From contig JAADGV010000111.1 of NCBI GenBank assembly GCA_013152205.1, positions 62,001 to 126,000 on the forward strand: 64,000 nucleotides of DNA, written 5' to 3'. How positions within the stretch are numbered: the first letter of the stretch is position 1; each line of letters opens with the position of its first letter. This stretch comes from Planctomycetota bacterium. Lineage in GTDB: Bacteria > Planctomycetota > Planctomycetia > Pirellulales > Lacipirellulaceae. The notes under the pieces are model-generated. The model was given only the letters and a program-made list of their open reading frames with translations. It did no database searches and had not been told where the DNA came from. Below, piece by piece: positions 21,812 to 22,627 of the stretch. Position numbers and translations under genes: made by a program.

Positions 21812-21858
21812 ATTGCGGGGAACGGCGAGGGCTTCTATACTGAGGGGCTTGCTTTTGT

Positions 21859-22386
21859 CATGCAATCCGTGGCAGAGCATTCCTTCAGGCCTGGATTGAA
21901 ATACATAAAGAGGTTCTTCAGGCATTTTAGTGACTAGGTGACCCACAAATGCCCTGAAAGGGAAAAATATGATAGCCCAGGGCAAAGCCAACTGAAGCGT
22001 AGCAGAGGTTGGCGTCGCCCTGGGTTAGTAAGCAATCAAACAATCGTCCGAGAGGGCGGCGTAATATAACAACGGAACGTTGCCGAGGACGAAATCGGGC
22101 CGCGGGTGAGTTTCGGCCGCGGCGACGTGCCGTTGAATGGCTGAGCTACGAACTCGGCCGAGGATTCCTAGGCAATTGAACCTAGGGCGGCGCCAAGCTT
22201 CGCGATGCTCGCTTGCCTTGCCCTAGGCTGTGATGTTTTGCCCCTTTGGGGCAGAAGCAGCTTTGCCGCTTCGATGCAATGTTCTGCCACTAAAATTCCT
22301 GAAGAACCCATAAAGATGAACTTGTCGCAGATTGGGAGTTAGCCGTATCTGGAGAACAACCTTACAAAATCGAGCCATTGAGGTGA
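21859..22386 (+). pseudogene. DUF4160 gene remnant interrupted by a MITE
   Basis: Upstream of the insertion, codons from 21859 read HAIRGRAFLQAWIEIHK. After removing 21912-22308 and one copy of the 8-bp target duplication, the frame continues without a break as DELVADWELAVSGEQPYKIE and ends PLR-stop at 22384-22386. This matches the C-terminal half of DUF4160 proteins (pattern W-I-E-I-H-x-x-E-L-x-A-D-W). The N-terminal half is missing: an in-frame stop lies at 21841-21843 and the previous gene ends at 21811. So the gene was truncated at the 5' end and also interrupted. DUF4160 is normally encoded directly before DUF2442, which is exactly what follows 4 bp later. Confidence 0.82.
21912..22308. 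mobile_element. 397-bp MITE with 21-bp terminal inverted repeats and 8-bp target duplication
   Basis: The left end reads GGTTCTTCAGGCATTTTAGT and the right end, reverse-complemented, GGTTCTTCAGGAATTTTAGT; the 21-bp terminal repeats differ at one base. Immediately outside both ends is the same octamer CATAAAGA (21904-21911 and 22309-22316), a target-site duplication. There is no transposase gene. The interior is rich in secondary inverted repeats, for example AGCCCAGGGCAAAGCCAAC with GTTGGCGTCGCCCTGGG. The GG(T/C)TCTTC-type end and the 8-bp duplication fit ISL3-family mobilisation (inference). Excision in silico restores a DUF4160 reading frame. Confidence 0.88.
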
Positions 22387-22390
22387 GGCG

Positions 22391-22627
22391 ATGAACCCAA
22401 GGGTAAGTAAAGTGTTAGCCACGAATAATTATCAGCTAGATCTCTTGTTTACAAATGGCGAGCAAGGAGTTTTTGATTGTTCTGGCCTTCTTGAAGTGGG
22501 TGTGTTCAAGGAGCTAAAGAACCAGCACTACTTCAGTCAAGCGCAAGTCTTTGACGGCACCGTGGTGTGGCCTCATGAACAAGACCTATGTCCTGATACC
22601 TTGTACTTGGACTCAGTAAAAAAATAG
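22391..22627 (+). CDS. DUF2442 protein
   Basis: A 78-residue DUF2442 protein with the pattern PRVSKVLATNNYQLDLLFTN, a central F-D-C-S-G-L/F-K-E-L block and the C-terminal VVWPHEQDLCPDTLYLDS, where W-x-x-x-x-D-L-x-x-D-x-L-Y is the family hallmark. These proteins occur next to DUF4160 and have been suggested as toxin-antitoxin-like pairs or accessory DNA/RNA-associated factors; function is not established. Its DUF4160 partner just upstream is broken by truncation and a MITE insertion, so this gene is an orphan and has probably lost its promoter. The reading frame itself is intact. Confidence 0.85.
   Translation: MNPRVSKVLATNNYQLDLLFTNGEQGVFDCSGLLEVGVFKELKNQHYFSQAQVFDGTVVWPHEQDLCPDTLYLDSVKK

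Follow-up and report, generated by a model that had tools for sequence, protein, structure and literature searches.

What kind of element lies inside the remnant of a DUF4160 gene in this planctomycete DNA, what brought it there, and what does it carry between its ends? We use the term window for the whole 64-kb stretch of DNA that was analyzed (64,000 nucleotides), and positions are those of the window unless a contig is named. A sequence-only reading had described a 397-bp MITE with 21-bp terminal inverted repeats (TIRs) that have one mismatch and with a perfectly duplicated octamer at its flanks, all of which we confirmed. The element occupies positions 21912-22308, the left TIR GGTTCTTCAGGCATTTTAGTG differs by a single base from the reverse complement of GGTTCTTCAGGAATTTTAGTG at the right end, and the octamer CATAAAGA is present on both sides (Table 1). 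The ORFs of 21912-22308 include no transposase, as that reading had stated too. What it had missed was the structured interior, a pair of hairpins that we judge to be the more interesting part of the MITE. In our view it is probably a composite miniature transposon that combines a REPIN-like core with an ISL3 chassis.

Table 1. Features of the element and its insertion site (window coordinates).
Feature	Position	Strand	Basis
DUF4160 C-terminal remnant, portion 5' of the insertion	21883..21911	+	Pfam; comparison with sister-species locus L285
Target-site duplication, left copy, 8 bp CATAAAGA	21904..21911		Present once (CACAAGGA) in the empty orthologous site of a sister species
Left TIR, ISL3 type	21912..21932	+	Identical end flanks ISL3 transposase ORF in a congener
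Left Acido-Lenti-1-type hairpin unit, outward-reading	21951..22024	-	Copy L002 has the perfect form, Rfam 24.4
Conserved non-coding center, belongs to the long fold-back	22025..22180		z = -10; ~69% identity with the multicopy element of congener G010 (element positions 106-392)
Right Acido-Lenti-1-type hairpin unit, outward-reading	22181..22252	+	Sole perfect descriptor match in the 64-kb window; Rfam 18.9 bits
Right TIR	22288..22308	-	TIR comparison
Target-site duplication, right copy CATAAAGA	22309..22316		Flank comparison with the empty site
DUF4160 C-terminal remnant, portion 3' of the insertion, ending at the stop codon	22317..22386	+	Comparison with L285
DUF2442 gene, intact, usual DUF4160 partner	22391..22627	+	ORF and Pfam

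A sister species retains the insertion site in its empty form. We located the orthologous locus (L285) via the neighboring ROK-family gene and observed that the right flank matches contiguously, that 29 bp of the left flank directly abut it, and that the two matches overlap by exactly 8 bp, present as the single copy CACAAGGA; empty sites were what the earlier reading had proposed to look for in sister strains. The sister species has an intact DUF4160 gene (88 aa, 89.5 bits) followed by DUF2442. Compared to it, the window region 21812-22627 kept DUF2442 and had DUF4160 reduced to a stub. The claim that removal of the MITE restores a DUF4160 frame held in part: in silico removal does rejoin a frame, of about 33 C-terminal codons only, and the Pfam match of the rejoined sequence covers profile positions 49-65 of 65 (19.4 bits versus a cut-off of 23), so that restoration of the gene, which is truncated at its 5' side, was overstated. 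The C-terminal third survives around the insertion. Since the 5' part is missing from the window, DUF4160 is here a remnant rather than a gene broken by the MITE alone; loss of the 5' part was a change separate from the insertion, and either may have come first. The DUF2442 protein also gave a weak match, below the cut-off, to the antitoxin DhiA.

The MITE is multicopy, not single-copy. A search of its own assembly (4.6 Mb in 130 contigs), another check named beforehand, found relatives at about 20 places with identity of up to 90%, and six further copies were near full length with 85-90% identity. The TIR pattern with at most two mismatches had 18 matches in the same genome and 53, 12 and 15 in the congeners G002, G008 and G005, respectively, compared to 0 matches in these genomes for the reversed pattern used as a control. 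The genomes are draft assemblies, and several G002 contigs end inside elements. For the contigs of the MITE's own genome with a single TIR (C46, C112 and others) the paired TIR was not found; an obvious transposase was absent from the ORFs of two of them, C46 and C112.

At one locus (L146, G000:C113:5800-12500) a MITE copy is split by about 4.2 kb, with the halves at contig positions 6866-6978 and 11145-11432 and the split point at the left hairpin unit; the intervening DNA encodes a serine recombinase (IS607-like, Resolvase PF00239, with an N-terminal helix-turn-helix) and two other ORFs. At L006 (G000:C89:41.3-41.8 kb) a tandem array of ~18-bp units (TTAGTGGCTGAACATTGC) is positioned beside one TIR and extends the element to 485 bp. 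At L003 (G000:C89:166209-166616) a 19-bp direct repeat CTGAATACCCCTTTTTTAT extends across the target duplication into the TIR on the right, which looks like a rewriting of that end from the left-flank sequence. Yet another repeat (around GATGTCGTGGCCGACACCGCTAACG) adjoins three copies, L008, L009 and L015, which hints at nested repeat hot spots.

To characterize the target duplications, we searched every retrieved locus for two TIRs at most 1300 bp apart, which produced 28 distinct elements of 94-998 bp, and compared their outer octamers. The flanking octamers, with about 80% A+T, matched on average at 5.57 of 8 positions, compared to 2.68 upon re-pairing of lefts and rights (maximum 3.8 in 5000 shuffles), and a match at 7/8 or better was seen for 10 of the 28 elements, while 0.14 were expected. 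These statistics and the empty site support the earlier claim of transposition; that the element is non-autonomous holds as well.

An ISL3-like transposase had been suggested as the mobilizing enzyme, and the congener G002 supports this. It carries a 998-bp element with GGTTCTTCAGGAATTTTAGTG ends: the left TIR is identical to that of the MITE, and the right TIR has a single change. Between them lies a 309-aa ISL3-family ORF that exceeds the Pfam cut-offs for the DDE, helix-turn-helix and zinc ribbon models (PF01610, PF13542 and PF14690). In this copy the middle of the ORF is deleted, and its own flanking octamers match at 5/8 only. When GTDB genomes were scanned with the G002 protein, a Verrucomicrobiales assembly, from another phylum, proved to encode an intact ISL3 transposase (425-codon open frame, 265 bits). 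Its element is 1319 bp long and has the ends GGTTCTTCCGGGAATTTAGTGGG and GGTTCTTCCGGGGTTTTAGTGGG, near-identical variants of the window TIR; further relatives in the scan had ends GG(C/T)TCTTC...TTTAGTGG. Since ends and transposase are physically linked in both G002 and the Verrucomicrobiales assembly, the ISL3 assignment is supported: the MITE has the ends, and the A+T-rich 8-bp duplications, of an ISL3-family insertion sequence.

The sole PF01610 locus in the genome of the MITE (C82) was rejected as the partner: it is broken over three frames, is 29% identical and has no matching TIR. With this broken locus as the only one, the source transposase may have been lost, may be missing from the assembly or may reside elsewhere in the population. 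An intact ISL3 transposase with these ends was not found in that assembly, and therefore the window copy may be immobile today.

The space between the TIRs holds two units of two hairpins each, which mirror one another, read outward and are laid out like the Rfam family Acido-Lenti-1 (RF01687); the MITE as a whole folds into one long hairpin (z = -10 versus dinucleotide shuffles). The right unit has a stem CCTAGGGC/GCCCTAGG with a 31-nt loop, a 12-nt linker and the hairpin GCCCC-TTT-GGGGC; only 0.1 perfect matches of the structural descriptor were expected in the window from shuffles. The left unit, in mirror orientation, has an 8-bp stem CCCAGGGC/GCCCTGGG, a 33-nt loop, a 12-nt linker and a 5-3-5 hairpin with one mismatch. 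The Rfam match of the window MITE is weak, at 18.9 bits versus a gathering cut-off of 37, because the loops of the first hairpins are enlarged; four sister copies scored 20.6-24.4 bits. Among the six sister copies scanned in the same genome, L002, L004 and L007 have both units and the other three have one. Some hairpins of this genome that fit a minimal hairpin pattern, set without mobile context, have short loops. Congener elements bounded by the same TIRs gave strong Rfam matches, and in the homologous elements of G010 the Acido-Lenti-1 units score 47-52 bits, over the Rfam cut-off. The presence of tRNA or tmRNA was rejected, with none in the window, and so were other Rfam families, with chance-level matches only in the window and the related loci.

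When first proposed in 2010, Acido-Lenti-1 was taken to be a probable RNA of Acidobacteria and Lentisphaerae (PMC2864571), and it was still termed a little-known ncRNA in 2026 (PMC13298647). We found that some mirrored pairs of its units, about 570 bp apart, bracket ORFs for Y1 (IS200-like) transposases of ~150 aa. Such bracketed ORFs occur in the MITE's own genome (contig C8), in the congeners G008, G010 and G011, in another Pirellulales and in three Bacteroidales. When the strongest 28 Y1 genes in this genus were examined, 7 had Acido-Lenti-1 at a distance of at most 300 bp, compared to 0.06 expected. All seven encode DH[IV]H and Y---Q--HH, and six of them the WQ pattern; their ORF frames are 154-168 aa long, except for one of 237. 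The first two motifs define TnpA-Y1 subclass 1.2 in a 2018 survey, which describes this subclass as generally without IS200-type end structures and lists no REP for it (PMC6006769). The partner genes thus match subclass 1.2 in its motifs (DH[IV]H, WQ, Y---Q--HH) and its length of about 148 aa. Several other subclass 1.2 genes also have units beside them; these share the 12-nt linker and the 5-3-5 hairpin, have loops of up to 22 nt and were missed by Rfam. Units were absent beside three Y1 genes that lack the Y---Q--HH motif (L324-L326), and some Y1 genes have no recognizable units. What is associated with Y1 genes is the family of units rather than the exact sequence of the window MITE.

Other arrangements were observed as well. 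Same-strand, closely spaced Acido-Lenti-1 arrays, which are not REPINs, occur at G102:C57:20925-21306 and G147:C62:21924-22402 (Bacteroidales). In the Bacteroidales genome G172 (C52, C90, C113 and others; L304-L311) mirrored pairs are placed between other palindromes (GGGGCGGTTCGCGAACCGCCC), which may mark a second composite element, of another kind.

A mirrored arrangement around HUH transposase genes is the behavior of REP hairpins (PMC6006769). It argues against one alternative, that Acido-Lenti-1 is a functional RNA or a transcription terminator carried at the borders of MITEs and Y1 elements as an insulator against read-through. The original annotation, the strong paired stems and the outward orientation at element borders would all fit such a role, which we consider unlikely while giving it some weight. 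Acido-Lenti-1 is probably best read as a DNA hairpin recognized by a single-strand transposase, and not primarily as a small RNA; its placement beside the transposase genes suggests mobilization by Y1.

According to a second alternative, the window element is an ordinary ISL3 MITE with an unrelated fold-back inside, and the likeness to Acido-Lenti-1 is due to chance. The Rfam score below the cut-off is consistent with this, as are some elements with the same TIRs but a length of only 94 bp (L106), for which the scan of related loci gave no Rfam match. We regard it as very improbable, since the descriptor has a single perfect match in the 64 kb, accompanied by a mirrored mate, the layout recurs in six other copies of the same genome and the homologous G010 element exceeds the cut-off. 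The geometry in congeners had already largely refuted it. A genus-wide Rfam scan (searches of many genomes were run with stricter filters) gave 131 Acido-Lenti-1 matches in 11 of 14 genomes. For 36 of the 131, a TIR with at most two mismatches was positioned 41-65 bp outside the unit (41-43 bp in 24 cases, 45-65 bp in the rest), and the unit was outward-reading by 36 to 0; most copies in the genus had no TIR within two mismatches nearby. Successive matches less than 400 bp apart were divergent ('-+') in 31 cases, convergent ('+-') in 3 and on the same strand in none. The elements L100 and L163 have both perfect octamer duplications and mirrored Acido-Lenti-1 pairs. The constant spacing of TIR and unit suggests that the composite of the two spread as one unit. 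On the contig of the G002 ISL3 copy the genus scan listed no Acido-Lenti-1 match, from which we conclude that the autonomous element does not include the units.

Transposition of the IS200/IS605 type is not known to make target duplications. That the Y1 transposase itself moved the MITE, as a true REPIN with ISL3-like TIRs that are incidental, is hardly credible: REPIN-like doublets without ISL3 ends do occur in Bacteroidales and another Pirellulales, but the 8-bp duplications lie directly outside the TIRs, and the empty site has exactly one octamer copy.

We therefore return to the composite transposon as the preferred reading. As the MITE has no transposase of its own, an ISL3 transposase acting in trans would have cut and pasted it by its TIRs. 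The hairpin pair would be a REP-doublet (REPIN-like) core from an HUH/Y1 system, putatively of TnpA-Y1 subclass 1.2, which would have become enclosed between ISL3 ends and afterwards been amplified by ISL3 transposition. On the broader scale we lean towards the view that Acido-Lenti-1 is the DNA hairpin repeat of TnpA-Y1 subclass 1.2, that its mirrored doublets are REPINs of Planctomycetota and Bacteroidales, and that in one planctomycete genus they were taken over by ISL3 ends, which would yield a miniature transposon with the recognition structures of two unrelated transposition chemistries. In the literature searched, we found no report of ISL3 MITEs in Planctomycetes or of a REP reading of Acido-Lenti-1.

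If this reading is correct, the small-RNA annotation that an Rfam family bears in many genomes (near Tannerella protease genes, for instance; PMC13298647) should give way to one as mobile DNA. A transposase subclass for which associated repeats had been reported as lacking would gain a candidate substrate, and its function would become directly testable. The double-labelled element would have a single-strand (HUH) body and DDE cut-and-paste ends, one route by which MITEs may gain structured cores.

With respect to known systems, the element resembles the MITEs of ISL3-family insertion sequences: it is short, non-coding and multicopy, shares its TIRs with an ISL3 element, has an A+T-rich 8-bp duplication and faces an empty site in a relative. 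Unlike them, it has as its interior a mirrored pair of Acido-Lenti-1-type hairpins and not a shortened transposase gene. With the RF01687 consensus it shares the 8-bp stem, the 12-nt linker with its sequence, and the 5-bp stem with a 3-nt loop, perfectly in the right arm and with one mismatch in the left; it differs in the first-hairpin loop, which is 31-33 nt instead of 4, and in a score below the gathering value. As in REPINs/BIMEs and the REPtrons of TnpA-REP (RAYT), two palindromic units are mirrored about 100-200 bp apart, are repeated in the genome and also bracket an HUH/Y1 gene, and a cognate Y1 gene flanked by a unit was found on contigs C8 and C96 of the MITE's own genome, in G008, G010 and G011, and in Bacteroidales. 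However, the layout of the units, two hairpins with a 12-nt linker, differs from that of the GTAG-tagged REP, the transposase matches TnpA-Y1 subclass 1.2, and in this genus the doublet is placed inside ISL3 TIRs. The 'atypical secondary structures' of class 3 and subclass 2.6 TnpA-Y1, repeats without the GTAG-type foot of classical REPs (PMC6006769), are likewise genome-recurrent hairpins around Y1 genes of Planctomycetes or Bacteroidetes, whereas the proteins described here carry the Y---Q--HH and DH[IV]H/WQ motifs of subclass 1.2.
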